Assembly: GCF_004016515.1 (NCBI RefSeq)
Contig: NZ_SACT01000010.1
Coordinates: 62,001 to 126,000, forward strand
DNA length: 64,000 nucleotides
Source of the DNA: Rubrivivax albus
GTDB lineage: Bacteria; Pseudomonadota; Gammaproteobacteria; Burkholderiales; Burkholderiaceae_C
Direction: 5' to 3'
Shown: one piece after another, positions 1,959-48,839 of the stretch
Position numbering within the stretch: the stretch's first letter is position 1
How the letters are laid out: each line of letters opens with the position of its first letter
The notes under the pieces: model-generated
Seen by the model: the letters and a program-made list of their open reading frames with translations, nothing else
Database searches by the model: none
Told to the model about the DNA's origin: nothing
Made by a program: the position numbers and the translations under genes

Positions 1959-1959
1959 G

Positions 1960-2004
1960 AGTCCGATTATGGACCCCATGAATACAGAAGTCCACTGAAG
2001 GACT
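1960..2004 (-). promoter_or_regulatory. Antitoxin promoter with tandem inverted-repeat operator
   Basis: Two similar inverted repeats are seen: AGTCC-GATTAT-GGACC at 1960-1975 and AGTCC-ACTGAA-GGACT at 1989-2004, with centres 29 bp apart. Reading the minus strand, a -35-like TGGACT (1994-1989), a 17-bp spacer and a -10-like CATAAT (1971-1966) fall inside these repeats. This is the arrangement expected for an autorepressing antitoxin. The distal repeat overlaps the stop codon of the upstream beta-oxidation gene. The repeats are direct observations; the operator role is inferred. Confidence 0.55.
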
Positions 2005-4138: not shown

Positions 4139-4140
4139 GG

Positions 4141-5346
<1,206 letters not shown>

Positions 5347-26038: not shown

Positions 26039-27412
26039 ATGCACGTACGCTCTCTCCCCCCGGCCTCCTCGCCCCTCACCCGGCCCTGCCAGGCTGCGCC
26101 GCGCCGGCCCTCGCCGCGCACCGGCGCTTCGCTCAGGCGCCTGGCCGTCGTCGTCGCGGCGGCTGCCGCCTGTTTCCCGGCCGCGGCCGTGGACATCGGC
26201 CCCTTCTTCACCCTGACCGGCTTTGCCAAGGCGGAAATGGTGCGGGGCAGCAACGTCTGCGACGAGTGCCAGAAGGAACCGAACGAGAACCGCCAGCGCG
26301 AGTGGGCCGACCCGCTCGTCTACGGCAAGGCCTACGGCAGCGACACCAGCACCACTGTGCTGTTTCAGCCCTACCTGGGCATGCAGGTCGACCTGCCCAA
26401 CGGCTTCAAGGCCGTGGGCCTGCTGAGCCAGCGCTGGCGCGACGGCAAGGTCGACATCGAGGGCGCGATCTACGAACGCAACATCGGCGTCCGCCACGAG
26501 GAGTACGGCACGCTGTCGATCGGTGCGATGACCAGCCGCAGCTGGGCGGTGGCCGACTTCCCCTACGCCTCGGACTTCGGCATCAGCGACGCCTGGGCGT
26601 CCAGCGGTGCCGGCTACGCCCTGCTGGGCCATGCCCTGCGCTACACCTCCCGCATCATGGACGTGATGGACGGTGACCTCGTGCTCGAGGCCACCTACGA
26701 CACCGGCCCCAGCGGCTGGGACCGGAACGACCCCTGGATGCTGGAGTTCTGGGGCAAGTACACCCGCGGCGGGCTGATGATCGACGCCTCGGTGCAGGTC
26801 TCGCGCAACGGTCAGCCGGTGTCCTGGGGCCATGCGCCCTTCTTCGGCCTGACCACCAACCCGGCCGACGACGACATCCTTGGTGGCTCGTCGCAGGGCA
26901 TCTTCCAGCTGATGGCGCGCTACTACTTCACGCCAAAGATCGAGGCCACCGCCGGCGTGCGCTTCAACCGGTGGAGCGGCGCCTACGCGGTGCCCACCAC
27001 CTTCGGCCGCGGCGGCCTGTGGAACAACATGTTCAACGTCGACTGGGGTGGCACCGACGCCAACGGCGTGCCCAACCCCGGCTACCCGGCGCGCACCACC
27101 GACCTGATGGCCGGCGTGCGCTACCTGCACGGCAAGTGGGCCTTCAACACCGGCATGGTCTACCTGGGCAAGGCCAGCACCGACAACCCCAGCGAGCGCG
27201 GCCAGAGCAACAGCGCGCTGATCAACACCGTGGGCGTGGACTACAACTTCGGCCACGGGATCCGGTTCTACGGCCTTGCCGGCATGGTGCACTACGACCG
27301 CAAGGGTCTGGCGCCGCTGTCCATGCCCAGCCACAACGCGTTCACCAACGTCGACCCGCGCGTCGCCACGCGCGGCAACTGGTTCGGCGTCGGCGCCGTC
27401 TTCACCTTCTGA
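26039..27412 (+). CDS. Outer-membrane porin
   Basis: 457 residues. After a basic N-terminus comes a signal segment (LAVVVAAAAACFPAAA), then VDIGPFFTLTGFAKAEMVRG, a typical start for betaproteobacterial porins. The body has alternating beta strands with aromatic girdle residues (FQLMARYYFTPKIEATAGVR, YLHGKWAFNTGMVYLGKA) and ends in VGAVFTF, the C-terminal Phe needed for insertion. It is the first gene of an operon with lipoprotein GH17, GH30, the phosphorylase and the symporter-GH17 fusion, and sits 20 bp after operator C. It probably passes gluco-oligosaccharides across the outer membrane. The first ATG is used; a later start at the signal core is possible. Confidence 0.82.
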   Translation: MHVRSLPPASSPLTRPCQAAPRRPSPRTGASLRRLAVVVAAAAACFPAAAVDIGPFFTLTGFAKAEMVRGSNVCDECQKEPNENRQREWADPLVYGKAYGSDTSTTVLFQPYLGMQVDLPNGFKAVGLLSQRWRDGKVDIEGAIYERNIGVRHEEYGTLSIGAMTSRSWAVADFPYASDFGISDAWASSGAGYALLGHALRYTSRIMDVMDGDLVLEATYDTGPSGWDRNDPWMLEFWGKYTRGGLMIDASVQVSRNGQPVSWGHAPFFGLTTNPADDDILGGSSQGIFQLMARYYFTPKIEATAGVRFNRWSGAYAVPTTFGRGGLWNNMFNVDWGGTDANGVPNPGYPARTTDLMAGVRYLHGKWAFNTGMVYLGKASTDNPSERGQSNSALINTVGVDYNFGHGIRFYGLAGMVHYDRKGLAPLSMPSHNAFTNVDPRVATRGNWFGVGAVFTF

Positions 27413-27422
27413 GGCCCGAGTC

Positions 27423-29168
27423 ATGATCTCCTGGATGTCCTCGATGGCGCTGCAGCACGGGCGCCGCCTTGCCGCCCTCCTGACGGCGGCCGTGCTCTCC
27501 CTCGTCGTCGCCGCCTGCGGCGGTGGTGGCTACCTCGACTCCCCGGTGTCGCTGACCGACCGCCGGGCCCTGCCGGCGGAGTTCACGTCGCGCACGGCCG
27601 CGGCCTACTCGCCCTACCGCACGGCGCTCAGCGAGGCCGACCTCGACGGCGAGGTCATCACCTACGCCAACGTGCTCCAGGACCTGCGCCTGGTGCAGGG
27701 TGCCGGTGTGGGCGTGATCCGCCTGTTCAGCAGCGCGCGCTTCGGCGAGCTGGTGCTGCGCGTGATCCGCGAGAACGGGCTCGACCTGAAGATGCAGCTC
27801 GGCGCCTACGTCTACAACCCGGTGGACGACGCCATGGAGGCGCAGAACCAGGCCGAGCTGGCCAGCCTGATCGACCTGTCCACCCGTTACAGCGACATCG
27901 TGCTCGCGGTCAGCGTCGGCAACGAGGCGATGGTGGACTTCTCCTTCCTGCAGATCCCGCCGGCGGTGATGGCGCGCTACATCAAGCAGGTCCGCGATGC
28001 CGTCACCCAGCCGGTGACGACCAACGACAACTGGTACTTCTGGGCCACCGCGCCCAACGCCGTGCTCGACGTGGTCGACTACGCCGCCGTGCACACCTAC
28101 CCGCTGCTGGACACCTTCTACTCGCCCGACACCTGGGACTGGCGCCAGCGCGACGTGCCGGCCGACGAACGTGCCGACGCGATGATGGACGCCGCCGTGC
28201 AGAGCGCGAAGAACGAGATCGCGGCCGTGCGCAACTACCTCGATCGCATCGGCCTGAGCACCATGCCGATCGTCATCGGCGAGACCGGCTGGACCGCCAT
28301 CGACTACAACGGCGACCCCACGCTGGGCTTCCGCGCCAGCCCGGTGAACCAGAAGATGTACTACGACCGGCTGGCCGCCTGGAAGGCCGAGCCGGCCGGC
28401 AACAAGCCGCCGGTGCAGATCTTCTACTTCCAGTCCTTCGACGAGCAATGGAAGAGCAGCGACGACGGCTGGGGCCTGTTCACGCGCGACCGCAAGGCCC
28501 GCTGCGTGGTGCAGGACATGAATCCGCCGAGCGCCGACTGGGTCTACGACACCTCGGTGTCCTGCGACCCGGCCACGGCGGTCTTCTTCGACCCGCCGAC
28601 CCCGACCGACCCGCTGGCCGACACCGTCAGCCGCTGGGTGCTGTTCTCCGACGCCCCGGCCGCCACCGGCGACCTGATCGCCACGGATCGCAGCTTCAAC
28701 CCGTTCGCCACCACCGTGGCGCCGCTCACCAGCGCCACCGCGGCCCCGGACGGCGGCAGCCAGAGCATCGCCATCACGGCCAACCCGCAGGTCTGGGGCT
28801 GGGGCTTCTTCCAGGCCGGCCCGGCGGTCAACATGACCGGCTTCGAGAACGGCCACGTCAACCTTTGGATCCGCACCAACGGCTACCCGGGCCGCATCGA
28901 GATCGGCGTCTGGACCGACACCGAGGAGCGCGAACAGGCCGAGGCCTACATCGCCATCGCGGCGGGCGACTACGGCTACTGCACCAACGACCAGTGGTGC
29001 CTGGTGTCGATCCCGGTGGCCGACTTCCTGGCGGCCAACCCTCGACTGGACCTGCGCTACGTCACCGCCGGCTTCGTGATCTCCGACATCTTCGACCGCA
29101 CGGGCAAGGCGCAGGGCACGAGCGGGCTTCCGCTGGTCTATGTCGACGGCATGTCCTGGACGCGCTGA
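27423..29168 (+). CDS. Lipoprotein GH17 beta-1,3-glucanase with C-terminal beta-sandwich
   Basis: 581 residues with a lipobox (LVVAAC), so anchored to a membrane by lipid. The GH17 TIM barrel spans about residues 50-380: GAGVGVIRLFSSARFGELVL, the acid/base Glu168 in VSVGNEAMVDF, TYPLLDTFYSP and the nucleophile Glu287 in VIGETGWTA. A further region of about 180 residues, with FFQAGPAVNMTGFENGHVNL and WIRTNGYPGRIEIGVWTD, looks like a carbohydrate-binding beta-sandwich. It likely trims beta-1,3-glucan at the outer surface or in the periplasm. It starts 11 nt after the porin stop; its end overlaps the GH30 frame. Confidence 0.87.
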   Translation: MISWMSSMALQHGRRLAALLTAAVLSLVVAACGGGGYLDSPVSLTDRRALPAEFTSRTAAAYSPYRTALSEADLDGEVITYANVLQDLRLVQGAGVGVIRLFSSARFGELVLRVIRENGLDLKMQLGAYVYNPVDDAMEAQNQAELASLIDLSTRYSDIVLAVSVGNEAMVDFSFLQIPPAVMARYIKQVRDAVTQPVTTNDNWYFWATAPNAVLDVVDYAAVHTYPLLDTFYSPDTWDWRQRDVPADERADAMMDAAVQSAKNEIAAVRNYLDRIGLSTMPIVIGETGWTAIDYNGDPTLGFRASPVNQKMYYDRLAAWKAEPAGNKPPVQIFYFQSFDEQWKSSDDGWGLFTRDRKARCVVQDMNPPSADWVYDTSVSCDPATAVFFDPPTPTDPLADTVSRWVLFSDAPAATGDLIATDRSFNPFATTVAPLTSATAAPDGGSQSIAITANPQVWGWGFFQAGPAVNMTGFENGHVNLWIRTNGYPGRIEIGVWTDTEEREQAEAYIAIAAGDYGYCTNDQWCLVSIPVADFLAANPRLDLRYVTAGFVISDIFDRTGKAQGTSGLPLVYVDGMSWTR

Positions 29169-30528
29169 CCCGGCCGCCTGGCGCGTGGTGATGACCGCGC
29201 GCGACGGTGGTGCGCGGCTCGCGGCGCAGCCCGTGGCCTCCGTGGCCCCGGGCGACGCCGACGGGCCGCGGGTTTCGATCGATGCCTCGCGCCGGTTCCA
29301 GACCGTGCTGGGTTTCGGCGGCGCCTTCACCGAGGCCGCGGCCGTCACCTGGCAGACGCTGCCCGAAGCCGAGCGCGAAGCCCTGCTGCAGGCCTACTTC
29401 GACCCGGCCACCGGCCACGGCTACACGCTGGGCCGCGTGCACATGGGCAGCTGCGACTTCTCGCTGGGCCACTACGCGCATGCCGACGTGCCGGGGGACC
29501 TGGCGCTGGAACATTTCAGCATCGCGCGCGACCGCGTGGCGCTGCTGCCGTTCCTGAAAGCGGCCCAGCGCGTGGCCGGGCGGCCGCTGACCCTGCTGGC
29601 GTCGCCCTGGAGCCCACCGGCCTGGATGAAGGACAACGGCCGGATGGCCCATGGCGGCCGGCTCAAGCCCGAATGCCGCGAGGCCTGGGCACGGTGCTTC
29701 GTGCGCTTCATCCAGGCCTATGCCGACGAAGGCGTGCCGATCTGGGGCGTGACGCTGCAGAATGAGCCGCTGGCCGTGCAGCGCTGGGACTCCTGCCTCT
29801 GGTCGGCCCAGGAGGAGCGCGACTTCGTGCGCGACCACCTCGGCCCGGCGCTGGACACGGCGGGCCTGGGCCACGTGAAGATCCTCGGCTGGGACCACAA
29901 CCGCGACCTCATGGTCGAACGTGCCAGCGTGCTCTATGGCGACCCGGACGCGGCGCGCCGCTTCTGGGGCCTGGCCTTCCACTGGTACGGCGAACCGCAC
30001 TTCGACCACGTGCGCCAGGTGCACGAGGCCTGGCCGGACAAGCAGCTGCTGTTCAGCGAAGGCTGCCAGGAAGGCGGCCCGCACTGGGACAGCTGGGCCG
30101 CCGCCGAGCGCTACGCGCTCGCCCTGGTGAACGACCTCAACCACGGCACCGTGGGCTGGATCGACTGGAACCTGCTGCTCGACGAGACCGGCGGCCCCAA
30201 CCACGTGGGCAACCTGTGCCACGCCCCGGTGCTGGTGGACCGCGCTGCGAACCGCTGGGTCGCGCAGCCGTCGTTCCACGTGCTCGGGCAGTTCGCGCGC
30301 TTCGTGGCCCCGGGCGCCCGGCGCGTGCTCTGCACCGCCACCCGAGAGGCCCTGGCCACCACCGCCCTCGCCAACCCCGACGGGTCGGTGGCGGTGGTGG
30401 TGCTCAACCGCGGTGATGAGGCCCTGTCCTGCGTGCTCACCCATGACGCCGGGCAAGGCCGCATCGACCTGCCGGCGCACGCCATCGCCACCTGCACCCT
30501 CCCGCCGGCGCTGCCGGCCGCCGCATGA
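29140..30528 (+). CDS. GH30-family glycosidase (beta-glucosidase or beta-1,6-glucanase type)
   Basis: 462 residues if ATG 29140 is used, which overlaps the previous gene by 29 nt and keeps the strand PAAWRVVMTARDGGARLA; ATG 29191 is the alternative. GH30 marks are VLGFGGAFTEAAAVTW, the acid/base Glu209 in WGVTLQNEPLAVQ and the nucleophile Glu307 in QLLFSEGCQEGG, followed by GWIDWNLLLDETGGPNHVGN. The catalytic pattern fits the GH30_1 subgroup (beta-glucosidase or glucocerebrosidase-like), while a beta-1,6-glucanase role would suit laminarin side branches. No signal peptide is visible, so it would work in the cytoplasm. It ends in ATGA overlap with the phosphorylase. Confidence 0.85.
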   Translation: MSTACPGRADPAAWRVVMTARDGGARLAAQPVASVAPGDADGPRVSIDASRRFQTVLGFGGAFTEAAAVTWQTLPEAEREALLQAYFDPATGHGYTLGRVHMGSCDFSLGHYAHADVPGDLALEHFSIARDRVALLPFLKAAQRVAGRPLTLLASPWSPPAWMKDNGRMAHGGRLKPECREAWARCFVRFIQAYADEGVPIWGVTLQNEPLAVQRWDSCLWSAQEERDFVRDHLGPALDTAGLGHVKILGWDHNRDLMVERASVLYGDPDAARRFWGLAFHWYGEPHFDHVRQVHEAWPDKQLLFSEGCQEGGPHWDSWAAAERYALALVNDLNHGTVGWIDWNLLLDETGGPNHVGNLCHAPVLVDRAANRWVAQPSFHVLGQFARFVAPGARRVLCTATREALATTALANPDGSVAVVVLNRGDEALSCVLTHDAGQGRIDLPAHAIATCTLPPALPAAA

Positions 30529-33500
30529 ACCCCACTCCACCGGCCCGCATGCAGGGCCAATTCGAGACCGACGCCGAAGGCGAGACCTGGTACCGCCTGG
30601 ACGGCATCGACGCCGCCGACCCCTTCTTCATGGCGCTGGCCGGCGACAGCGACCTCTGGGCCTTCGTGTCGTCGGCCGGCTCGCTGGCCGCCGGCCGCCA
30701 CGACGCCGAGGGCTCCTTCCTGCCCTATGAGACGGTGGACAAGATCCACCGCCGCTGGGAACACACCGGGCCGCGCACCTGGATCCGCGTCCACCGCAGC
30801 GGCGCCGCGCCACTGCTGTGGACGCCGTTCACGCCGCGGCTGGACGGCCGGGGCGGTGCACGCGCCCTGTGGAAGAACCTGTCGTCCACCCGCATCCGCT
30901 TCCGCGAGGACTGTCCCGAGGCCGGGCTGGCGTTCGAGTACGAGTGGTTCACCTCGGCCGAACTCGGCCTGGTGCGCAGCGCACGACTGCAGCTGCTGCC
31001 TGCGGCCGCGCCCGTCTGGGTGGACGTGCTCGACGGCGTGCTGAACCTGGTGCCGCCGGGGGTCAGCGTGCTGCTCAACAACACGATGAGCTGCCTGGCC
31101 GACGCCTACAAGTGGAACGAGGCCCTGGCCGGCGGCCGCCTGGGCCTGTACACGCTGTACGCCCAGATCTGGGACCGCGCCGAGCCCAAGGAATCGTTCC
31201 AGGCGCTGGTGGCCTGGCACGCCGGCCTGCCCGCCGGCACGCGCACGCTGCTGTCGGCGCACCAGGTGGGCGCCTTCTGCCGTGGCGGTGCGGTCCAGGC
31301 CGAGACGCTGACGCGTGGACGCCCTGGCGCCAGTCTGGCGCAGTTCACCGCCACCGTCGACGCTGCCGGGCTGGCCTGGCACCAGGTGATCGACGGGCCG
31401 CGCTCGCAGGTCGAGGTCGACGCGCTCGCGCGGCGCCTGGCCGCCGGCGACGGCACGGCCGAGCAGATCGTCGCGGCCCGCCGGCGCAACACCGCGGGTG
31501 TGGACGAGCTGCTGGCACGCGCCGACGGCCTGCAGCACTCCGGCGACCCGCTGGCCGCGGCCCACCACCGCGCCAACGTGCTGTTCAACATCATGCGCGG
31601 CGGCGTCTTCGTCGACGGCGCGAACATCGACCGCGACGACCTCGTGGCCTTCGCCCGCCAACGCCACCTGGCGCTGGGCGAAACGCTGGCCGAAGCCGCC
31701 GCCGCGTGGCCTGCGACGATGGCGCGCGCCGACCTGCTGGCCCGCGCGGCCGCGCTGGGCCCGCAGGTCGAGCGCCTGGCCATGGCCTACCTGCCGCTGA
31801 CCTTCAGCCGCCGCCATGGCGACCCCAGCCGGCCCTGGAACAAGTTCAGCGTGCGCGTGCGCGACGCCCAGGGCCGCCGCGTGCTGAACCACCAGGGCAA
31901 CTGGCGCGACATCTTCCAGAACTGGGAGGCGCTGGTGCCCAGCGAACCGGCTTGGGTGGGCTCGATGGTGGCCACCTTCGTCGGCGCGATGACGCCCGAC
32001 GGCTACAACCCCTACCGCATCGGCCGCGACGGCATCGACTGGGAGGCCATCGAGCCCGACGACCCCTGGAGCTACATCGGCTACTGGGGCGACCACCAGG
32101 TGGTCTACCTGCTGCGCCTGCTGGAGGCGGCGCAGGCACACGACCCGGCGCTGTTGGACGGGCTGTGGGACCGCGCGCTCTTTCCGTTCGCCGACGTGCC
32201 GTACCGCCTGAAGCCGCACGCCGAGCAGGTGCGCGCGCCCAAGCAGACCATTCACTTCGACCACGCCGCCCACGAGCGCGCCCACGCGCGCAAGGCGGCG
32301 CTGGGCTCCGACGGACTGCTGGTCTGCGACGCCGACGGCCAGCCTGTGCTGGCCACGCTGGGCGAGAAGCTGGCCAACATCGTGCTGGCCAAGGCCGGCA
32401 GCCTGCTGCCCGGCGGCGGCCTGTGGCTGCACACGCAGCGGCCGGAGTGGAACGACGCCAACAACGCGCTGGCCGGCTACGGCCTGTCGGTGGTGACGCT
32501 GGCGCACTTGCGCCGTTTCCTGGCCTGGCTGGCCGCATGGCCCCGCGCTGCCGCCCCGTTCGCGCTGCCGGCGGCCACGCTGCAGGCGTTGAAGGGTCTG
32601 CTGGCGCTGGTGCAGGCCACGCCAATCACCGCGGTGGACGATCCGGTGCAGCGCCGCCGCTTCCTGGACACTGCCGGGGCCTCGCTGGACGCCTGGCGCG
32701 CGGCGGCCTACCAGGGCGCCACCGGCCGTCAACCAGCCACGGCCCCTGAAGGCCTGCTGCCGGCGCTGGCCGAAGCCCTGCTGCCTCTGGTGGACGCCAC
32801 GCTTCAACGCTGCCGGCGGCCAGATGGCCTGTTCGACACCTACAACCTCGTCGCCTTCGGTGAGGGGACCGCCGAGGTCTCGCGCCTGTACCCCATGCTC
32901 GAAGGTCAGGTGGCCGTGCTGTCGGCCGGCCTGCTGGCCCCGGCCGAGGCCACGACGCTGCTGGACACGCTCTTCGCCAGCCCGATCTACACCGCCGATC
33001 GCGACAGCTTCCTGCTCTACCCGGACCGCGACCTGCCCCGCTTCCTGGCGCGCAACCGGCTCGACGACGACGCGCTCGCGCAACCGGTGTTGCAGCGTCT
33101 GCTCGCCGCCGGACGGCACGACCTGCTGCAGCAGCAGGCCGACGGCACCGTGCGCTTCGCCCCGGCGCTGGCGAGCCGTGGTGACCTCGAAGCCGCCGCT
33201 GCCGACCTGGGCCACGACCTGCCCGCGCTCGTGGGCATCTACGAACGCGTGCTGGGCCACCACGCCTTCACCGGCCGTTCCGGCACCATGTTCGGCTACG
33301 AGGGCCTGGGCTGCATCTACTGGCACATGGTGGCCAAGCTGCTGCTGGCCGTGCAGGAACAGGTATTCGCCGCACTCGACGCCGGCGACCCGGCCCTGCC
33401 CGCGCTGTGCCGGCACTACCGCCGCGTGCGCGACGGGCTGGGCTACAAGCGTGGCGCCGCGGCCTTCGGCGCCTTCCCGCTCGACCCCTACAGCCACACG

Positions 33501-33821
33501 CCTGGCGAGGGCGGCGCGCGCCAGCCCGGCATGACCGGCCAGGTGAAGGAGGAGATCCTCACCCGTTGGGGCGAACTGGGCCTGCGCATGCAGGGCGGCC
33601 AGGCCCGCTTCGACCCGGTGCTGCTGGACGCGGCCGAGGTGCCGCTGGACGGCGTGCTGCGGTTCACCTGGCGGCGCATCCCCTGCACCTGGCGGCGCGG
33701 CGCGGCCACCCGCCTGCGCGTGCGCACCGACGCCGGGTGGACCGACTGCCCCGACCGCCGCTTCGACCCCACCGGCGTCGTCGAGATCGAAGCCACCGTG
33801 GCGATCCCCGACAGACCCTGA
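30525..33821 (+). CDS. GH94-superfamily beta-glucan phosphorylase (GH149/GH161-like)
   Basis: 1098 residues without a signal peptide. The early half is a beta-sandwich (FMALAGDSDLWAFVSSAG, then RIRFREDCPEAGLAFEYEWF). The catalytic (alpha/alpha)6 part has NWRDIFQNWEALV, YIGYWGDHQVVYLLRLLE and RPEWNDANNALAGYGLSVVT, with Asp644 aligned to the general acid of cellobiose phosphorylases. A late segment reads GAFPLDPYSHTPGEGGARQP. Length and motifs are closest to the beta-1,3-oligoglucan phosphorylases of families GH149 and GH161, which release glucose-1-phosphate from the chain end, saving one ATP per glucose. I cannot decide between the two families by eye. Its place in a beta-1,3-glucan operon, 4-nt overlap with GH30 and 15 nt before the transporter, fits well. 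Confidence 0.72.
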   Translation: MNPTPPARMQGQFETDAEGETWYRLDGIDAADPFFMALAGDSDLWAFVSSAGSLAAGRHDAEGSFLPYETVDKIHRRWEHTGPRTWIRVHRSGAAPLLWTPFTPRLDGRGGARALWKNLSSTRIRFREDCPEAGLAFEYEWFTSAELGLVRSARLQLLPAAAPVWVDVLDGVLNLVPPGVSVLLNNTMSCLADAYKWNEALAGGRLGLYTLYAQIWDRAEPKESFQALVAWHAGLPAGTRTLLSAHQVGAFCRGGAVQAETLTRGRPGASLAQFTATVDAAGLAWHQVIDGPRSQVEVDALARRLAAGDGTAEQIVAARRRNTAGVDELLARADGLQHSGDPLAAAHHRANVLFNIMRGGVFVDGANIDRDDLVAFARQRHLALGETLAEAAAAWPATMARADLLARAAALGPQVERLAMAYLPLTFSRRHGDPSRPWNKFSVRVRDAQGRRVLNHQGNWRDIFQNWEALVPSEPAWVGSMVATFVGAMTPDGYNPYRIGRDGIDWEAIEPDDPWSYIGYWGDHQVVYLLRLLEAAQAHDPALLDGLWDRALFPFADVPYRLKPHAEQVRAPKQTIHFDHAAHERAHARKAALGSDGLLVCDADGQPVLATLGEKLANIVLAKAGSLLPGGGLWLHTQRPEWNDANNALAGYGLSVVTLAHLRRFLAWLAAWPRAAAPFALPAATLQALKGLLALVQATPITAVDDPVQRRRFLDTAGASLDAWRAAAYQGATGRQPATAPEGLLPALAEALLPLVDATLQRCRRPDGLFDTYNLVAFGEGTAEVSRLYPMLEGQVAVLSAGLLAPAEATTLLDTLFASPIYTADRDSFLLYPDRDLPRFLARNRLDDDALAQPVLQRLLAAGRHDLLQQQADGTVRFAPALASRGDLEAAAADLGHDLPALVGIYERVLGHHAFTGRSGTMFGYEGLGCIYWHMVAKLLLAVQEQVFAALDAGDPALPALCRHYRRVRDGLGYKRGAAAFGAFPLDPYSHTPGEGGARQPGMTGQVKEEILTRWGELGLRMQGGQARFDPVLLDAAEVPLDGVLRFTWRRIPCTWRRGAATRLRVRTDAGWTDCPDRRFDPTGVVEIEATVAIPDRP

Positions 33822-33836
33822 CCCCATCTCCCCACC

Positions 33837-36191
33837 ATGACAGCCCACGCCGTAGCCACGCACAAGATCCCCTTCGGCCAGAAGGTCGCGTTCGGCCTGG
33901 GCATGCTGGCCAACCAGATGTTCCCGGCGGCGCTGGGCATCTTCATGGTGGTGCTGGTGCAGAACCTGGGCTTCCCGCCCTGGATGTGGGGAGTGCTGTT
34001 CTTCCTGCCGCGGGTGTTCGACTCGGTCACCGACCCCATCATGGGGTTCATCTCCGACAACACCCGCTCCAAGTGGGGGCGGCGCCGGCACTACGTGTTC
34101 ATCGGCGCGATCATCATGGGCATCTCCTTCGTGGCGATGTGGCAGCTCTACCGCGAGGACGGGGTCACCTACAACTTCATCTACTTCCTCGCCTGGTCGC
34201 TGGTCTTCTACCTGGGGCTGACCATCTTCAGCGTGCCCTACGTGGCCATGGGCTACGAGATGAGCGATGACTTCCACGAGCGCACCAGCATCATGGCGGT
34301 GGCGCAGTGGATCGGCCAGTGGGCCTGGGTCATCGCGCCGTGGTTCTGGGTGGTGATGTACGACCCCAGCTGGTTCCCCAACGCCGACACCGCCACGCGC
34401 ACGCTGTCCGTCTGGGTGGGCGTGGTCTGCGCGGCGCTGGCCATGGTGCCGGCGATCTTCCTGAAGAGCCGCCCAACCACCGACGACACCAGCCTGGTGC
34501 CGCTGGACATGAAGAGCCTGGGGCGCGGCATGCGCGAGATCCTGGCCGGCTTCAAGGACGCCTTCGGGATCGCCCCGTTCCGCAAGCTGTGCTTTTCCAC
34601 CTTCCTGATCTTCAACGCCTTCAACACGGTGGCGGCGTTCTCCTTCTTCATCGTCGTCTACCACCTGTTCAATGGCGATGCGGCCGCGGCCGGCATCTGG
34701 CCCACGCTGTTTGGCAGCGTCGGGGCACTGGTCACCACGTTCGCGGTGATCCCCACCGTGGCGTGGATGTCCAAGCACATGGGCAAGAAGAACGCCTTCA
34801 TGCTCTCGCAGGGCATCTCCATCATCGGCTACGTGCTGCTGTGGTTCCTGATGGTGCCGGGCAAGCCGTACATGTTCATGCTCGCGCTGCCGTTCTTCAG
34901 CTTCGGCATCGGCGGCCTGTTCACGCTGATGATGTCGATGACGGCCGACGTCTGCGACCTGGACGAGCTGGCCACCGGCAAGCGCCGCGAGGGCATCTTC
35001 GGCGCCATCTACTGGTGGATGGTGAAGTTCGGCTTCGCCATCGCGGGGCTGCTGAGCGGGGCGATCATGACGGTGGTCGCCTTCACGCCCGGCGCGGCGA
35101 CGCAGCCAGACGGCGCGGTCGACGGCCTGCGGCTGTTCTACTCCGGCGTGCCCATCGTCGGCACCCTGCTGGCGATGTGGATCATGCGCAGCTATGACCT
35201 CGACGAGGCCCGCGCCACCGAGGTCCACGCCGAACTGGAGCGGCGCAAGCAGCGCGCCAACGCCGGGGCCGGCTCGTCCAGGCCGTCGGCGCCGCGCGTG
35301 CCGCTGGTCGCGCGTGGCCTGGACCTGCGCGCCGGTGCCCTGCCCGGCCCGGCCACGCCCGAACAGGCCCACGCGCAGTTCCGGGACCTGCTGGCCAACC
35401 GCGTCTACGGCCTGTGCTTCAGCCCCTACGTCGAAGGGCAGGACACCGCCGACGTGCCCACCGACGCACAGATCCATCGCCGCATCGGCATCGTCGCGCC
35501 ACACACGCGCTGGGTGCGCACCTTCTCCTGCACCGGTGGCCAGGAGCGGATCCCGGCCGTGGCGCGCGAGCAGGGTCTGAAGACGATGGTCGGCGCCTGG
35601 ATCAGCGGCGACCACGAACGCAACGAGCGCGAGATCGCCAGCCTGGTGCAGCTGGCCCGCGAAGGCCTGGTGAACGTGGCCGTGGTTGGCAACGAGGTAC
35701 TGTTGCGTGGCGAACTCGACGAGGCCGAGCTGATCGCCTACCTGAAGCGCGTGCGCGAGGCCCTGCCCGACGACGTGCCGCTGGGCTGCGTCGACGCCTA
35801 CTACCAGTTCCTGGAGCGGCCCGCCCTGGTGGCCGCCTGCGACGTGGTGCTGCCCAACTGCTACCCCTTCTGGGAGGGTGCGGAGATCGGCGTGGCAGCA
35901 CAGTACCTCAAGCGCATGCATGCCCTGGTGCAGGCCGCCGCCGGCGAGAAGCCGGTGGTCATCGCCGAGACCGGCTGGCCCGGTCGCGGGCAGCCGGTGG
36001 ACGACGCCGTGCCGTCGCCGGAGAACGCGCTGCACTACTTCGTCACCGTGCAGCAGTGGGCGCGGCGCGAAGGCGTCAAGATGTTCTACTTCGCGTCCTT
36101 CGACGAGCCGTGGAAGCTGGCGCAGGAAGGCGACGTCGGGCCCGAGTGGGGGCTGTGGGACAAGGACGAGCGCCTGAAGTACGGGGCCTGA
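33837..36191 (+). CDS. GPH-type sugar symporter fused to a C-terminal GH17 domain
   Basis: 784 residues in one uninterrupted frame. Residues 1 to about 465 are a MelB-like GPH (MFS superfamily) symporter: about 12 hydrophobic segments, PRVFDSVTDPIMGFISDNTR, then SKWGRRRHYVF and YVAMGYEMSDDFHERTS. A charged linker of about 40 residues (with AELERRKQRANAGAGSS) leads to a complete GH17 domain, about residues 500-784: VYGLCFSPYVEGQ, acid/base Glu620 in VVGNEVLLR, nucleophile Glu711 in VIAETGWPGRG, and ASFDEPWKL. With 12 helices both ends of a GPH symporter lie in the cytoplasm, so the enzyme should face inward and act on sugars as they enter. The GH17 part is very like the separate enzyme at 41346-42320. 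Last gene of the operon. Confidence 0.87.
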   Translation: MTAHAVATHKIPFGQKVAFGLGMLANQMFPAALGIFMVVLVQNLGFPPWMWGVLFFLPRVFDSVTDPIMGFISDNTRSKWGRRRHYVFIGAIIMGISFVAMWQLYREDGVTYNFIYFLAWSLVFYLGLTIFSVPYVAMGYEMSDDFHERTSIMAVAQWIGQWAWVIAPWFWVVMYDPSWFPNADTATRTLSVWVGVVCAALAMVPAIFLKSRPTTDDTSLVPLDMKSLGRGMREILAGFKDAFGIAPFRKLCFSTFLIFNAFNTVAAFSFFIVVYHLFNGDAAAAGIWPTLFGSVGALVTTFAVIPTVAWMSKHMGKKNAFMLSQGISIIGYVLLWFLMVPGKPYMFMLALPFFSFGIGGLFTLMMSMTADVCDLDELATGKRREGIFGAIYWWMVKFGFAIAGLLSGAIMTVVAFTPGAATQPDGAVDGLRLFYSGVPIVGTLLAMWIMRSYDLDEARATEVHAELERRKQRANAGAGSSRPSAPRVPLVARGLDLRAGALPGPATPEQAHAQFRDLLANRVYGLCFSPYVEGQDTADVPTDAQIHRRIGIVAPHTRWVRTFSCTGGQERIPAVAREQGLKTMVGAWISGDHERNEREIASLVQLAREGLVNVAVVGNEVLLRGELDEAELIAYLKRVREALPDDVPLGCVDAYYQFLERPALVAACDVVLPNCYPFWEGAEIGVAAQYLKRMHALVQAAAGEKPVVIAETGWPGRGQPVDDAVPSPENALHYFVTVQQWARREGVKMFYFASFDEPWKLAQEGDVGPEWGLWDKDERLKYGA

Positions 36192-39482: not shown

Positions 39483-40415
39483 TCAACCCGGCGCCTGCCA
39501 CACCCGCACGTGCTCGACCTGCATCTCCACCGGGAAGATCGTGTCGTCCACCGGCCCGCCCAGGTCGCCGCCGATGGCGATGTTCAGGATCAGGAACTGC
39601 GGCGCATCGAAGGGCCAGGCCGCGCCACCGGGGCCGCTGTTGAGGTAGCGGAAGTGCTCCACCCCATCCACGCTGAAGACGATGCGCTCCGGGGTCCAGT
39701 GCATCTGGTAGTCGTGGAACGCGCTGCACGCCGTGGCCAGCGTGCGGCCCGCGCCGCGCCCGTTGCCGCCGCTGCCGGCGGCGGTGTGCACCGTCGAGAA
39801 CACGTGGTCCGGGTTGCGGCCCGTGTGCTCCAGGATGTCGAGTTCGCCGTCCTGCGGCCAGCGGCCGCCGCTGCCCAGGGTCCAGATCGCCGGCCAGGTG
39901 CCGCGGCCGCAGGGCATTCGCGCCCGCACCTCGAAGAAGCCGTAGGTCCATTCGGCCAGGCCACGGGTGATCAACCGTGCCGAGGTGTAGCGCTGGCCGC
40001 CCCAGTCCGGCGCGCTACTGAGCGATTCGCGCCGGGCCGTGATGACCAGCCGCCCGTCACGCACCTCGGCGTTCTCCAGCCGGCCCGAGGCGTAGTACTG
40101 CAGTTCGTTGTTGTACCAGCCGGCCTGGTTGCGCCCGGTGTCGGCGACCCACCGGGTGGCGTCGGGCTGGCCTGGGGTGTCGAACTCGTCGGCCCAGGCC
40201 AGCACGTAGTGGGCGGGCGCGGCAGCAGGCGGTGGCATGCCCACCGGCGGCGGCGCCGTGGGTGGCGACGGTGCAGGTGCCGGCGAAGGGCTGCCGGCCA
40301 CCGGGCCACTGTCACTGGCCGCCCCGCCGCCGCAGGCCGCGAGGAAGGCCACCAGGAGGAACAGCCAAGCCGCCGGGGCGCCACGGCGTGCCCGCGTGGT
40401 ACACGCCTCAGTCAT
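39483..40415 (-). CDS. Lipoprotein GH16 endo-beta-1,3-glucanase (laminarinase)
   Basis: 310 residues with a lipobox (AFLAAC) and a Pro/Ala/Ser-rich linker of about 40 residues, so a tethered enzyme. The GH16 beta-jelly roll follows: YVLAWADEFDTPGQPD, GWYNNELQYYASGRLENAEV, FFEVRARMPCGRGTWPAIW and the catalytic motif DGELDILEH, with nucleophile Glu191 and acid/base Glu196. The C-terminus (FLILNIAIGGDLGGP, then VEHVRVWQA) completes the fold. It likely makes oligosaccharides from laminarin-type glucan outside the cytoplasm. It is the last gene of the ABC operon and overlaps the preceding GH17 gene by 8 nt. Confidence 0.92.
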   Translation of the reverse strand: MTEACTTRARRGAPAAWLFLLVAFLAACGGGAASDSGPVAGSPSPAPAPSPPTAPPPVGMPPPAAAPAHYVLAWADEFDTPGQPDATRWVADTGRNQAGWYNNELQYYASGRLENAEVRDGRLVITARRESLSSAPDWGGQRYTSARLITRGLAEWTYGFFEVRARMPCGRGTWPAIWTLGSGGRWPQDGELDILEHTGRNPDHVFSTVHTAAGSGGNGRGAGRTLATACSAFHDYQMHWTPERIVFSVDGVEHFRYLNSGPGGAAWPFDAPQFLILNIAIGGDLGGPVDDTIFPVEMQVEHVRVWQAPG

Positions 40416-41346
40416 GCGCCGTGGCCACGGCCGGCCAGTCCTGCATCGCCAGCTTGGGCTCGCGGTCCACCGTGAACAGGCCCCAGTGCTTTTCCGGCTC
40501 CAGCGGGTCGGGCGATCCCTTCCAGGGTTCGTCGAAGGCCTCGAAGACGAAGCACAGCCGCTGCTCGCGGTCGGTCCATGCCATCAGGTCGCGCAGGTAG
40601 ATCGCCTGCAGTTCCTGCGCGGCGTGCTCGGCATGCATGCCGCGGCCGTTGCTGCGCGTGCACCAGCCGGCCTCGGTGATCACCACCGGCTTGCCCGGAT
40701 GGGCGCGCTCCACGCTCTCGACGTTGTGGCGCGTGTAGTCCAGCGCTTCGTGGATGTGCTTGTACTCCCACACCGGGTAGGTGTGCACGGAGATGAAGTC
40801 CAGTTCGGGCACCAGCGGCTTGAGCTTGTCCAGCCAGGGCACGTAGTTCTCGCAGAAGGTCACCGGCTGGCGCACGGCGGCCTTCACGCGGCGCACGTGG
40901 TGCAGCATGCGCTCCACCGGCACGATGTGGTCGCTCCAGTCCACGGTGCATTCGTTACCCACGGCCACGCTGAAGACGATGTCCTCGTAGGCCTGCGCGA
41001 GCGCGATCAGGCGCCCCACCTCGACCTCGTTGGCCGCGATGCTGGCCTCCAGTTCGTCCTCGGCGTACACACCGCCCCAGGGGCAGCCGAAGTTGTTCAT
41101 CTCCGGTCCCAGGTAGGCACCGAGCATGACCTTGAAGTCCATGCGCTCGCGCCGGATCACCTCCAGCACGCGCTCGGCATGCGGGCTGCAGTCGTACAGG
41201 CGCAGCAGCGGCCAGTGCGGCTTCAGGATGAGGAGGTCTTCGTGGATCTGCTCCAGGCTGGGGTAGATGCGGCTGTCGGGGCTCTGGCCCTCGCGGTAGC
41301 CGGAGTAGCAGATGGCACGGCCGGTGGGGATGTCGATCTTCTGCAT
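40408..41346 (-). CDS. Cytoplasmic GH17-family glucosidase/glucanase, divergent member
   Basis: 312 residues from ATG 41346, which shares its A with the TGA of the preceding gene (TGATG). GH17 barrel elements are AICYSGYREGQSPDSR, LLRLYDCSPHAERVLEVIRR, FKVMLGAYLGPEMNNFGC, the acid/base Glu132 in VAVGNECTVDW, FISVHTYPVWEYKH and the nucleophile Glu225 in VITEAGWCTRSN, then FEAFDEPWKG. It has no signal peptide. Sequence is clearly different from the other GH17 proteins here and closer to the GH17 type found with glucan-modifying glycosyltransferases. A role on short imported oligosaccharides is likely; the linkage preference cannot be read from the sequence. Confidence 0.83.
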   Translation of the reverse strand: MQKIDIPTGRAICYSGYREGQSPDSRIYPSLEQIHEDLLILKPHWPLLRLYDCSPHAERVLEVIRRERMDFKVMLGAYLGPEMNNFGCPWGGVYAEDELEASIAANEVEVGRLIALAQAYEDIVFSVAVGNECTVDWSDHIVPVERMLHHVRRVKAAVRQPVTFCENYVPWLDKLKPLVPELDFISVHTYPVWEYKHIHEALDYTRHNVESVERAHPGKPVVITEAGWCTRSNGRGMHAEHAAQELQAIYLRDLMAWTDREQRLCFVFEAFDEPWKGSPDPLEPEKHWGLFTVDREPKLAMQDWPAVATAHD

Positions 41347-42320
41347 CAGGCGAACTTCGGCTTTCCGTCCTTGTCCCACAGGCCCCAGTAGGCCCCGACA
41401 TCGCCTTCGGCGCCGACCTTCCAGGCCTCGTCGAAGGCCGCGAAGTAGAAGACCTCCAGGTCCTCTGCCTCGGCCCACTGGATGGTGTCGACGAAGTACG
41501 CCATCGCGCCTTCGGTCGAGGGCACCGAGCCGTGGAACGCGCTGCCCTGGTCGGGCCAGCCGGTCTCGCTGATCACGATGCGCTTGCCGGGGGCCGCGGC
41601 GCGCGTACGGCGCACCATGCTCTGCATGTAGGCCAGTGCGCCCTCGCGCGGGCAGCCCTCCCAGAACGGGTAGCAGTTGGTCAGCACCACGTCGCAGGCG
41701 GCGGTGATACGCGGGTGGAGCTCGAAGAGGTAGTAGGCGTCGACGTAGCCCACCGGCACGCCAGGGAGGGCGTCCTTGACGCGCTGGATGCACGCGAGCA
41801 GTTGATCCTCGCCCATGTCCTCGCGCAGCAGCACCTCGTTGCCCACGGCGACGATGTCGGCGTGGCCGGCACGCGCGACCTCGATCACGCCGGCGATCTC
41901 GCGCTCGTTGATCTCGTCGTCGGTGCCGATCCAGGCCCCCACCAGGGTCTTGATGCCCATCTCGTGCGCGATGCGGGGCGTCTGCTCGTGGCCGTCGGTG
42001 CACGAGAAGGTGCGGATCCAGCGCGTGTAGGGCTGGATGATCTGCAGGCGCTCGCGGATCTGCGCCTCGCTGACCTGCGAGCCCGGCGACTGGCCTTCCA
42101 GGTAGGGGCTGAAGCAGAAGCCGTGCACGCCGCGCTGGAGCACACCGCGGAAGGCATCGTTCAGCGTCTGGCGCTCGGCATCGGTCCAGACCTCGGGCTT
42201 GACGTGCGACCAGGCGCCGCCCTGGGCGGCCACCCGCGGCATCGCGCCGGAGCGCACGGGGTCGGCTGCCGGGTATTCGCCGTGCTCGGCGTCCTGCTGG
42301 GGAATTCGGGGTTTCGACAT
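41346..42320 (-). CDS. Cytoplasmic GH17-family glucosidase/glucanase
   Basis: 324 residues from ATG 42320, preceded by GGAG at about 7 nt; a TTG at 42332 is a weaker start. No signal peptide is visible. GH17 marks are VHGFCFSPYLEGQSPG, RWIRTFSCTDGHEQTPRIA, acid/base Glu162 in VAVGNEVLLRED, NCYPFWEGCP, nucleophile Glu252 in VISETGWPDQG and AAFDEAWKVG. It is a close paralogue of the C-terminal domain of the symporter fusion at 33837-36191: most of these motifs are shared almost word for word. It lies between the cytoplasmic GH16 gene (25 nt) and the second GH17 (TGATG overlap). It should act on imported beta-1,3-gluco-oligosaccharides. Confidence 0.87.
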   Translation of the reverse strand: MSKPRIPQQDAEHGEYPAADPVRSGAMPRVAAQGGAWSHVKPEVWTDAERQTLNDAFRGVLQRGVHGFCFSPYLEGQSPGSQVSEAQIRERLQIIQPYTRWIRTFSCTDGHEQTPRIAHEMGIKTLVGAWIGTDDEINEREIAGVIEVARAGHADIVAVGNEVLLREDMGEDQLLACIQRVKDALPGVPVGYVDAYYLFELHPRITAACDVVLTNCYPFWEGCPREGALAYMQSMVRRTRAAAPGKRIVISETGWPDQGSAFHGSVPSTEGAMAYFVDTIQWAEAEDLEVFYFAAFDEAWKVGAEGDVGAYWGLWDKDGKPKFA

Positions 42321-42345
42321 CGTGTTCTCCAATGGCCTTGCGTGT

Positions 42346-43283: not shown

Positions 43284-44660
43284 TCAAGCCTCCACGGTTT
43301 CGCGGCGCGCCGCGGCCGGCGCCTGCACCGCCTGGCGCCGCCGCGCCAGGAAGTCCCGGTACCAGGCGTAGCTGGTCTTGGGCGTGCGCAACTGCGTCGC
43401 GTAGTCCACGTGCACGATGCCGAAGCGCTTGGCGTAGCCCGAGGCCCATTCGAAGTTGTCGAGCAGGCTCCAGACCATGTAGCCCTCCATGCGCACGCCC
43501 TGGCGGATGGCCTCGCCCACGGCGTCGATGTGGCGGGCGATGTAGTCGGTGCGTGCCGGGTCGTGCACGCGGCCGTCCACCGCCTCGTCGCGGAAGGCGC
43601 CACCGTTCTCCGTCACGTACAGCGGCGGCACGGCGTAGTCGTGGTCCAGCTGCACCAGCAGGTCGGTCAGGCCCTCGGGGTAGATCTCCCAACCCATGTC
43701 GGTGCGCTCGCGGCCGCTGCTGGCCACGTCCCACGGCTCGCCGGCGCGCGCCACCAGCCGCGAGTAATAGTTGATGCCCAGGAAGTCCATGCGCTGCGCA
43801 ATGGCGTTCAGGTCGCCGGGCTGCACCTTCGGCGCGTCGGCACCCAGGTGGGCCAGCACGTCGTCGGGGTAGCGGGCGTGGAACAGCGGGTCCATGTACC
43901 AGCGGCGCAGCAGGCCGTCCTCGCGGCGCGCGGCGGCCACGTCGGCGTCGGTGTCGGTGGCCGGGTATACCGGCGAGAGGTTCAGCACGATGCCCAGCCG
44001 GGCCGCACAGCCGTCGGCGCGCAGCGCCTGCAGCGCCAGGCCGTGGCTGAGCAGCAGGTGGTGCGACACCTGCGCCGCCACGGCGCGGTCGCGGATGCCG
44101 GGGGCGAACACGCCGGTCTCGTGGCCGAGGTGGGCGATGACCCAGGGCTCGTTGTGCGTGGTGATCGACGCTACCCGGTCACCCAGGCGGCGGTTCATCG
44201 CCAGCGCGTACTCGACGAAGCGGTGCACCGTCTCGCGGTTCGCCCAGCCGCCCTGCTGCTGCAGCGCGTCGGGCAGGTCCCAGTGGTTCAGCGTCAGGTA
44301 GGGCTTCACGCCGCGCGACAGCAGGCCGTCCACCAGGCGCTCGTAGAAGTCCAGGCCGGCGGCGTTCCAGGCGCCCTGCCCCGACGGCTGGACGCGCGGC
44401 CAGGACACCGAGAAGCGGTAGGCGTCCACACCCAACGCGGCGATGAGGTCCAGGTCCTCGCGCCAGCGCTGCACGTGGTCGCAGGCCACGTCGCCGTTGC
44501 TGGCGTCGGCGATGCGGCCCGGCTCGGCGCAGAAGCGGTCCCAGATCGACGGGCCCTTGCCGTCGGCCTGGGCTGCACCCTCGATCTGGAAGGCACTGGT
44601 GGCCACGCCCCAGACGAAGTCCGGGCCGAAGAAGCGGTGGCGGTCGGGTGGGATGGTCAT
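43284..44660 (-). CDS. GH1 beta-glucosidase
   Basis: 458 residues, the usual GH1 length, no signal peptide. Family marks are FVWGVATSAFQIEGAA at the N-terminus, YRFSVSWPRVQPSG, acid/base Glu171 in SITTHNEPWVIA, INYYSRLVA and nucleophile Glu351 in LYVTENGGAF, then EGYMVWSLLDNFEWASGY. It releases glucose from cello- or laminari-oligosaccharides in the cytoplasm. It lies 19 nt after the second permease gene and 2 nt before the GH16 gene. Glucose would be taken up by the glucokinase of the divergent lipoprotein operon. Substrate preference between beta-1,3 and beta-1,4 cannot be read from these motifs. Confidence 0.94.
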   Translation of the reverse strand: MTIPPDRHRFFGPDFVWGVATSAFQIEGAAQADGKGPSIWDRFCAEPGRIADASNGDVACDHVQRWREDLDLIAALGVDAYRFSVSWPRVQPSGQGAWNAAGLDFYERLVDGLLSRGVKPYLTLNHWDLPDALQQQGGWANRETVHRFVEYALAMNRRLGDRVASITTHNEPWVIAHLGHETGVFAPGIRDRAVAAQVSHHLLLSHGLALQALRADGCAARLGIVLNLSPVYPATDTDADVAAARREDGLLRRWYMDPLFHARYPDDVLAHLGADAPKVQPGDLNAIAQRMDFLGINYYSRLVARAGEPWDVASSGRERTDMGWEIYPEGLTDLLVQLDHDYAVPPLYVTENGGAFRDEAVDGRVHDPARTDYIARHIDAVGEAIRQGVRMEGYMVWSLLDNFEWASGYAKRFGIVHVDYATQLRTPKTSYAWYRDFLARRRQAVQAPAAARRETVEA

Positions 44661-47828: not shown

Positions 47829-48839
47829 TCAGCCGCCCACTGCCGAGGCGGTGGACTCGCGCACGACGAGCTGAGGCGGTGGCAGCGCGGTGTCGGGCTT
47901 GCTTCCCGCCAGCAGGGCCAGCATGCCGGCCGCCGCGGCACGGCCGAGGTCCATCACCGGCTGATGCACGGTGGTCAGCGGCGGGATGCTGTAGGACGCC
48001 GAGGCCAGGTCGTCGAAACCGACCAGCGACACGTCCTGCGGCACGCGCAGACCACGGCGGTGCAGCGCCAGCGCGGCGCCGAAGGCCATCTGGTCGTTCG
48101 CGGCGAACACCGCGCTGAAGCGGCGCCTGGCGTCCAGCAGCCGCTCGATGGCCTGGCGGCCGCCGGCCTCCTGGTAATCGCCCACCGTCATCAGCATCGG
48201 ATCGACGGTCACGCCAGCGTCGGTGAAGGCGGCGCGGAAGCCGGCCTCGCGTTCGCGCGAATCGGGGTGAAGCGGATCACCACCGATGAAGGCGATCGAG
48301 CGATGGCCCAGCCCCAACAGGTGCTCGGTGGCGATGCGGGCACCCAAAGCGTTGTCGAAGTCCAGTGACAGCAGGCCCGGTGCCTTCAGGCTGCGCCCGG
48401 TCACCACCACGGGCAGCTGGCGCGCCAACGCGCGCAGTGCAGCGTCGCTCAGGCGCCCGGTGAGGACGATCAGGCCATCCACCCGGCGGGCGCGCAGCAC
48501 GTCGATGCAGCGGGCCTCCTCGTCGGCGTTCCAGTGGCCACTGACGAACAGCGGGCTGTAGCCCGCCGCCCCCAGCGTGTCCTCGATGCCGCGCAGCGCC
48601 GCACCGTAGAACGGCGAGTCGATCGCCTGCGTGACGACGCCGATGCTCAGCGTGCGGCCACCGGCCAGACCACGCGCCACCGGGTTGGGCACGAAGCCCA
48701 GGGTGCGGATCGCGTCCTCCACGGCCTGCTTCTTGTCGTCGCTGACGACCGCGGTGCCGTTGAGGATGCGCGACACCGTGCTCGGCGACACGCCCGCATG
48801 GCGGGCGACCTGTTCGAGGGTGACGGTCCGGGAAGCCAT
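47829..48839 (-). CDS. LacI-family transcriptional regulator of the glucan locus
   Basis: 336 residues. The N-terminal helix-turn-helix is VTLEQVARHAGVSPSTVSRI with LNG after it, followed by the hinge (FVPNPVARGLAGGRTLSIGV) and a periplasmic-binding-protein-like effector domain (GLIVLTGRLSD, FIGGDPLHPDSREREAGF, VSLVGFDDLASASYSIPPLT). LacI proteins of this class bind palindromes with a central CG, such as the TGAAAGCGCTTTCA sites in front of the glucan operons. It lies next to the ABC operon, 157 nt from its start, on the same strand. A partial copy of the operator lies just upstream of its own ATG. The effector is probably a gluco-oligosaccharide or a sugar phosphate; this is inferred. Confidence 0.9.
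   Translation of the reverse strand: MASRTVTLEQVARHAGVSPSTVSRILNGTAVVSDDKKQAVEDAIRTLGFVPNPVARGLAGGRTLSIGVVTQAIDSPFYGAALRGIEDTLGAAGYSPLFVSGHWNADEEARCIDVLRARRVDGLIVLTGRLSDAALRALARQLPVVVTGRSLKAPGLLSLDFDNALGARIATEHLLGLGHRSIAFIGGDPLHPDSREREAGFRAAFTDAGVTVDPMLMTVGDYQEAGGRQAIERLLDARRRFSAVFAANDQMAFGAALALHRRGLRVPQDVSLVGFDDLASASYSIPPLTTVHQPVMDLGRAAAAGMLALLAGSKPDTALPPPQLVVRESTASAVGG

Follow-up and report, generated by a model that had tools for sequence, protein, structure and literature searches.

In a 64,000-nucleotide stretch of the Rubrivivax albus genome (contig NZ_SACT01000010.1, positions 62,001 to 126,000; hereafter the window), a single open reading frame (ORF) at 33837-36191 joins a membrane carrier to a glycoside hydrolase (GH) of family GH17, and the locus thereby raises the question of whether a carrier-enzyme join gives more than co-expression. 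We read the product as an importer of laminari-oligosaccharides with a cytoplasmic beta-1,3-glucan hydrolase of its own, and put the probability of this reading at about 0.68.

The frame runs through 784 codons without an internal stop. Its N-terminal half matched the Pfam model MFS_2 (residues 19-457, 225.3 bits against a cut-off of 27) and its C-terminal end matched Glyco_hydro_17 (residues 706-782, 38.8 bits; cut-off 28.2), while phmmer aligned residues 539-772 to 4wtp, a Rhizomucor GH17 glucanosyltransferase (E 1.4e-30). Both catalytic glutamates, Glu620 in the motif VVGNEVLLR and Glu711 in VIAETGWP, were invariant in all 18 same-genus fusions (own included) and in all 42 rows of an alignment spanning two phyla. 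When AlphaFold2 was supplied with 42 sequences, it returned a model with a mean pLDDT (predicted local distance difference test) of 83.8 and a pTM (predicted template modelling score) of 0.60, in which twelve membrane helices and a cytoplasmic helix (457-477) preceded an eight-strand barrel; confidence was lowest at residues 475-488, within the linker region. The top Foldseek matches were MFSD2A and MelB for the carrier half, and 4wtr and 4wtp for the GH17 half (TMt 0.86 for 4wtr). A preliminary description of this DNA, made from the sequence alone, had proposed one uninterrupted frame containing a GH17 domain with both glutamates at these positions, and had suggested a structure prediction; the frame and the residues are as it stated, and the predicted helices and barrel agree with it.

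The same description knew of no characterised example of such a protein, and in this it was mistaken. FbGH17B (FORMB_24740, AOR29491.1) from Formosa sp. Hel1_33_131 was described as a 12-helix carrier of the major facilitator superfamily (MFS) followed by a C-terminal GH17 module, which was assayed (Unfried et al. 2018, PMC6246565). That report already proposed coupled uptake and hydrolysis, found activity on debranched laminarin only, with release of glucose, placed the gene in a cluster with GH30 and GH17A genes, and called the architecture, the single one it described, common in marine Flavobacteriia (PMC6246565). The carrier-GH17 kind has therefore been known since 2018, and the window fusion is a further member. 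The two proteins share the order of their halves and have GH30 and a GH17 gene nearby; they differ in that the window member comes from Burkholderiales and has Leu623 where FbGH17B has Met. What is new over the 2018 report is the presence of members in a second phylum, together with separate re-joins and probable losses. In searches of a literature from which subscription papers were mostly absent, the matches listed mentioned neither a Burkholderiales member nor the class-2 fusions described below, and those listed by one of the searches did not name Rubrivivax; the word 'fused' does not occur in PMC11345257, and a search on extra domains of carriers returned nothing useful.

A scan of genome contigs yielded at least 535 confirmed relatives, and the 80 best matches among them form the set of named loci (L numbers). 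These lean towards full-length matches, and since some derive from genomes that also carry G numbers here, the counts are not additive. Of the 59 other genomes of the genus, 17 had the full fusion, free of stops and 75-80% identical, and both halves lay in one frame in 80 of 80 of these best loci, one of which (L061) runs off its contig. Because the frame is kept across same-genus genomes and named loci, the fusion is not a sequencing or assembly artefact; a frameshift or sequencing error, which the preliminary description had named as its refuter, was not borne out by the relatives. The search for the same domain order that it had suggested retrieved fusions both in Burkholderiales (among the 80 loci: Rubrivivax, Hydrogenophaga, Rhodoferax, Aquabacterium and others) and in Bacteroidota (Flavobacteriaceae, Saprospiraceae, Lewinellaceae, Cyclobacteriaceae, Chitinophagaceae and others). 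Across the full alignment, the window protein shared 63-65% identity with 12 Flavobacteriaceae rows, FbGH17B not being among them; this identity, together with the carrier tree, points to shared descent of the window fusion and the flavobacterial members.

Fusions of this type, hereafter class 1, were then counted in a sample of 296 Bacteroidota genomes, a class-1 carrier being a listed match of at least 58% identity. Fifteen genomes had such a carrier: ten class-1 fusions, G152 (locus L121, see below) and four unfused carriers (L118, L119, L120 and L122); the whole fusions in this sample were 58-64% identical to that of the window. Carriers of 42-50% identity occurred in 17 more genomes, of which one was fused (G163, L126); for the other 16, the frames were checked in 11 and judged by listed frame length in G314, G241, G144, G214 and G233. 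A free GH17 gene lay directly downstream on the same strand in 9 of these 11 checked loci. Three carriers of about 40% identity (L131-L133, all unfused) and weaker matches were excluded from the count. In 399 Burkholderiales genomes sampled from across the order, own included, the fusion was found at E<=1e-60 in the own genome only; a second genome, G089, gave a 32% carrier-only match.

Hydropathy gave 12 hydrophobic segments within residues 22-450. Taking the N-terminus as inside, Lys and Arg numbered 28 in the 168 residues of predicted inner loops and tails versus 3 in the 65 outer residues, and phmmer aligned the last carrier helix and the C-terminal tail to MFSD2A. From this charge bias and homology we assign the GH17 half a cytoplasmic location, in agreement with the earlier proposal of 12 segments with both termini inside. 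A thirteenth membrane helix at 599-619 was considered and rejected; the hydrophobic peak there coincides with a helix and a strand inside the GH17 barrel. The earlier assignment to the glycoside-pentoside-hexuronide (GPH) symporters (TC 2.A.2) stood in part. The Pfam match, the fold and a pair of aspartates shared with MelB helix II (Asp62 and Asp66, invariant in 42 of 42 rows) speak for it; the carrier fell below the NCBIfam GPH cut-off, and is for that reason called GPH-like here. In MelB the helix II residues concerned are Asp55 and Asp59 of the cation site, and the helix IV aspartate is Asp124. To our knowledge, MelB and other GPH carriers bear no enzyme domain, and carriers of any kind joined to a digestive enzyme seem to be few. 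LacS, a GPH carrier with a C-terminal IIA domain, is a precedent for a cytoplasmic domain in this position, although the added domain is regulatory and not digestive; NdvB, in which a GH17 is joined to a membrane glycosyltransferase, is a precedent for GH17 on a membrane protein, but it builds glucan instead.

The type of enzyme was judged from the acceptor site. In the phmmer alignment, Leu623 corresponds to the Tyr of GSEVLYR in 4wtp. This Tyr is Tyr102 in RmBgt17A and Tyr136 in MlGH17B, and the site holds Met in FbGH17B; replacement of the RmBgt17A Tyr by Ala is recounted to abolish transglycosylation (PMC11005184). Leu occupied position 623 in 18 of 18 same-genus fusions, and Tyr in 4 of 42 class-1-labelled rows (these include L121, whose GH17 is of the free lineage) versus 34 of 55 free GH17 rows; as Leu was also found in 21 of the 55 free rows, the two lineages cannot be told apart by this position alone. 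Trp679 and Glu680 were invariant in class-1-labelled and free rows, so that the Tyr/Trp/Glu acceptor platform of glucanosyltransglycosylases is present but for its Tyr. Because Leu623 replaces the transglycosylation Tyr, we predict that the GH17 half is a hydrolase and not a transglycosylase.

As an importer with its own hydrolase, the protein would act midway in a pathway in which outer enzymes cut laminarin, a storage sugar of algae, and a porin passes the fragments. The carrier half, probably cation-coupled, would import short beta-1,3-gluco-oligosaccharides across the inner membrane, and the GH17 half, held at the inner face on a flexible tether, would cut the chains at their site of entry, after which a GH149-type phosphorylase and probably GH30 would finish or debranch them. 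The tether could provide a local concentration of enzyme, a fixed 1:1 dose and a forward pull on uptake. The single frame, its two domains, the catalytic residues, their conservation and the charge pattern are observed; the substrate, the coupling ion, the location of the neighbours and this benefit are what we infer. Several observations weigh against the reading. The linker is predicted to be flexible and, at a pTM of 0.60, the mutual placement of the halves is uncertain, with no fixed arrangement. The carrier scored 184 bits against the NCBIfam cut-off of 231.35 (TIGR00792) and has Ser132 in place of the MelB helix IV Asp, so MelB is no guide to its sugar or ion specificity; the low score and Ser132 suggest a subfamily of its own. 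GH149 was found in 1 of 7 Burkholderiales loci displayed and is thus not a constant partner. Unfused orthologues occurred in 3 of 21 same-genus genomes with a class-1 carrier (own included) and in 4 of 15 such Bacteroidota genomes, which makes tethering dispensable. Finally, a transport measurement for the Formosa fusion was not found in the accessible part of PMC6246565.

Four other explanations were weighed. The join might only fix co-expression and a 1:1 ratio, the halves working independently and the tether bringing no kinetic gain; we consider this unlikely but worth keeping in view, as the linker is flexible and variable, unfused orthologues are interspersed with fused ones in the carrier tree, and most of the checked 42-50% relatives already have a GH17 gene directly downstream. 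The evidence for three separate joins and the occurrence in two phyla suggest, without being decisive, that the physical link was worth keeping. The GH17 half could alternatively be mainly a transglycosylase that stores imported chains as branched oligosaccharides, as would fit the invariance of Trp679 and Glu680, which belong to a trio of transglycosylation residues, and the 53% identity between the GH17s of FbGH17B and MlGH17B (PMC11005184); the lack of the Tyr, the third of the trio, seen throughout the genus and in most class-1-labelled rows, and the glucose release reported for FbGH17B (PMC6246565) render this improbable. MlGH17B of Muricauda lutaonensis, close as it is to the FbGH17B GH17, is reported as a free transglycosylase with Tyr136 where the window protein has Leu623; it lacks a signal peptide, and its laminarin cluster also includes GH30 and an MFS gene (PMC11005184, PMC13188888). 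Its role is perhaps closer to that of the free GH17 of the window at 41346-42332 than to that of the fusion.

A periplasmic GH17 half, cutting before uptake so that the carrier imports glucose, could draw on the Formosa report, which mentions two periplasmic enzymes, not naming them at that point, and offers a tentative location model (PMC6246565). The charge bias, the twelve helices and the alignment of the C-terminal tail to MFSD2A oppose it, and the sole further hydrophobic stretch (599-619) lies within the barrel; we regard it as very improbable. For an artefact of sequencing or assembly nothing was found in favour, and with the frame intact in so many relatives its probability is negligible. 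We retain the reading of an importer with a tethered hydrolase. Matched unfused orthologues in one genus, re-joins, losses and a second phylum would offer natural comparisons for coupling, and so serve the question posed at the outset.

GH17 occurs in these loci as two neighbouring lineages, that of the class-1 fusions and a free lineage (GH17-S), and the history of the joins was examined in a quick GH17 tree of 104 rows. The GH17-S clade (59 rows; support 97 in the Shimodaira-Hasegawa-like approximate likelihood ratio test, SH-aLRT) included three fusions of a second class, from G056, G015 and G025, which sat among the Burkholderiales GH17-S (18 rows, 100); the GH17 of L121 grouped with the free ones of L125, L115 and L116 (95). 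Identities agreed: class-2 GH17s were 79-82% identical to free GH17s and 54-59% to class-1, and that of L121 was 73% and 57% identical, respectively. A single clade of all fused GH17 rows was rejected in the approximately unbiased (AU) test (p 2.8e-07), also without L121 (3.0e-04) and without class 2 (0.017), p values that are optimistic because the grouping was chosen with the first tree already in view. A single origin of all fusions is thus rejected for the GH17 halves by the AU tests on these quick trees. Together these data provide evidence for at least three separate carrier-GH17 joins; as the three class-2 GH17s did not form a group in the tree, class 2 may have arisen by one join or by several.

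The class-2 carrier (P0002) is a standard GPH member, passing NCBIfam TIGR00792 with 409 bits, and is only 24-26% identical to the class-1 carrier. A search with P0002, taken from G056, covered 20 of the 59 other genomes of the genus and gave three full fusions (G056, the query source, G015 and G025) and two carriers alone, of which that of G058 ends at a stop and that of G053 is cut by the contig end. The class-2 linker of 98-117 residues contains an in-frame ATG. L022 and L023 have AGGAG ahead of this codon, with six bases between, and L021 has the weaker GAGG. By one ribosome-site rule, two of three class-2 linkers qualified when it was applied by eye, and none of 24 when it was applied by script to the class-1 linkers containing Met (24 of 87 distinct frames). 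Mere overlap of two frames was considered for class 2 and rejected; the carrier frame has no stop ahead of the GH17. One class-2 gene may yield both the fusion and a free GH17 from the internal start.

In L121 the linker reads RNMSFREERFLNFKQSD and resembles the N-terminus of free GH17-S proteins, for example KRNMSFRKEKYLKFKESD; a former start peptide, MSFREERF, remains readable in it. This peptide and the ATG with AGGAG of class 2 are consistent with a carrier gene having been read through into its downstream neighbour. L126 was considered as a fourth independent fusion and set aside: both its linker and its GH17 resemble those of class 1, which makes a half-swap the likelier origin. We incline, by a modest degree, to the view that the carrier-to-GH17 tether was invented repeatedly, in class 1, class 2 and L121, with a probable half-swap in L126. 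If this is correct, the recurrence would imply that the tether itself is selected, and the repeated pairs would be natural test objects for the coupling of transport to hydrolysis.

Losses were sought in a quick carrier tree of 89 rows. The same-genus unfused carriers (G006, G019 and G031) are 82% identical and end at a natural stop. Unfused L024 paired with fused L053 (96), and these formed a five-row clade with the unfused L025 and a further pair of fused rows (99); as L024 and L025 are nested with fused rows, the GH17 half was probably lost secondarily there. Unfused L026 (clade at 87) and L118 (22-row clade, 98) were also placed among fused rows; L119, L120 and L122 fell outside them (83) and were perhaps never fused. 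The Burkholderiales carriers formed a single clade (20 rows, 100). Proof from tree shape of a transfer from Bacteroidota was attempted and abandoned: a constraint that kept the Bacteroidota class-1 carriers in one group was not rejected (AU p 0.705) and gave a tree 12.8 log units better, and nesting of Burkholderiales inside the Bacteroidota fusions is not claimed. Bacteroidota supplied the nearest unfused relatives of the carrier (42-50%), and the fusion occurred in the own genome only among the 399 Burkholderiales genomes; only such distribution favours the direction from Bacteroidota to Burkholderiales. Upstream of the fusion, L065 (4168-5610) and L105 (1707-3149) each encode one more carrier, which is unfused and 47-49% identical.

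Table. Positions of the fusion, its parts and neighbours in the window, and of the other fusions in their own loci.
Feature	Position	Strand	Basis or remark
GPH-like carrier + GH17 fusion	33837..36191	+	784 aa; ORF list, Pfam, AlphaFold2
Carrier half, residues 1-475	33837..35261	+	Pfam MFS_2, MelB alignment, AlphaFold2, hydropathy
Linker, residues ~476-507	35262..35357	+	differs among relatives
GH17 half, residues ~508-784, eight-strand barrel	35358..36188	+	Pfam, phmmer, AlphaFold2, Foldseek
Glu620 codon, predicted acid/base	35694..35696	+	aligns with Glu of GSEVLYR in 4wtp
Glu711 codon, predicted nucleophile	35967..35969	+	aligns with Glu of SETGWP in 4wtp
Porin-like ORF	26039..27412	+	first of same-strand set; label inferred, no Pfam match
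GH17 with lipoprotein-type leader LSLVVAAC	27423..29168	+	Pfam; start inferred
GH30	29140..30528	+	Pfam; no signal peptide seen by eye
GH149-type beta-1,3-glucan phosphorylase	30525..33821	+	1107 bits, just below 1150 cut-off
GH16, lipoprotein-like leader read by eye	39483..40415	-	
Second remote free GH17, ~34% to fused one	40408..41390	-	start not settled
Free GH17 (GH17-S), 52% identical to fused GH17	41346..42332	-	lineage fused in class 2
GH1 family enzyme	43284..44660	-	Pfam
ABC (ATP-binding cassette) importer	44680-47671	-	Pfam run on one permease + binding protein
LacI-type regulator beside ABC importer	47829..48839	-	
Class-2 fusions	L021 (G056), L022 (G015), L023 (G025)		window's own genus
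Class-1 carrier + GH17-S-lineage GH17, L121 (G152)	1884-4346	-	
42-50%-clade carrier with insertion in carrier, class-1-like linker + GH17, L126 (G163)	2312-4891	+	

The fusion lies in a beta-glucan region (Table). An ORF 49-55% identical to the porin-like one was present in 6 of the 7 Burkholderiales loci displayed, and the lipoprotein-type GH17 perhaps has a role like that of FbGH17A. The GH30 scored 242 bits with an endo-beta-1,6-glucanase model, below its cut-off of 700, and the stop of the GH149-type gene lies 15 bases ahead of the fusion start. An ABC importer with a binding protein lies in the same region, so two uptake routes may exist. Within the available DNA of the 15 Bacteroidota loci displayed, GH17-S was found in 15, GH149 in 13, GH30 in 11 and GH16 in 10; where found, they were 50-60%, 36-41%, 34-46% and 36-42% identical, respectively, to the window proteins. 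The carrier half was 69-82% identical to those of Bacteroidota among the best 80 loci, above its neighbours, a contrast partly built in because loci were chosen by a similar carrier. The MFS gene of Muricauda may have an overlooked GH17 end, for the order GH17A, GH30, MFS, GH17B given for that genus (PMC13188888) resembles that of many Bacteroidota loci here, in which the MFS gene is the fusion and a free GH17 follows.

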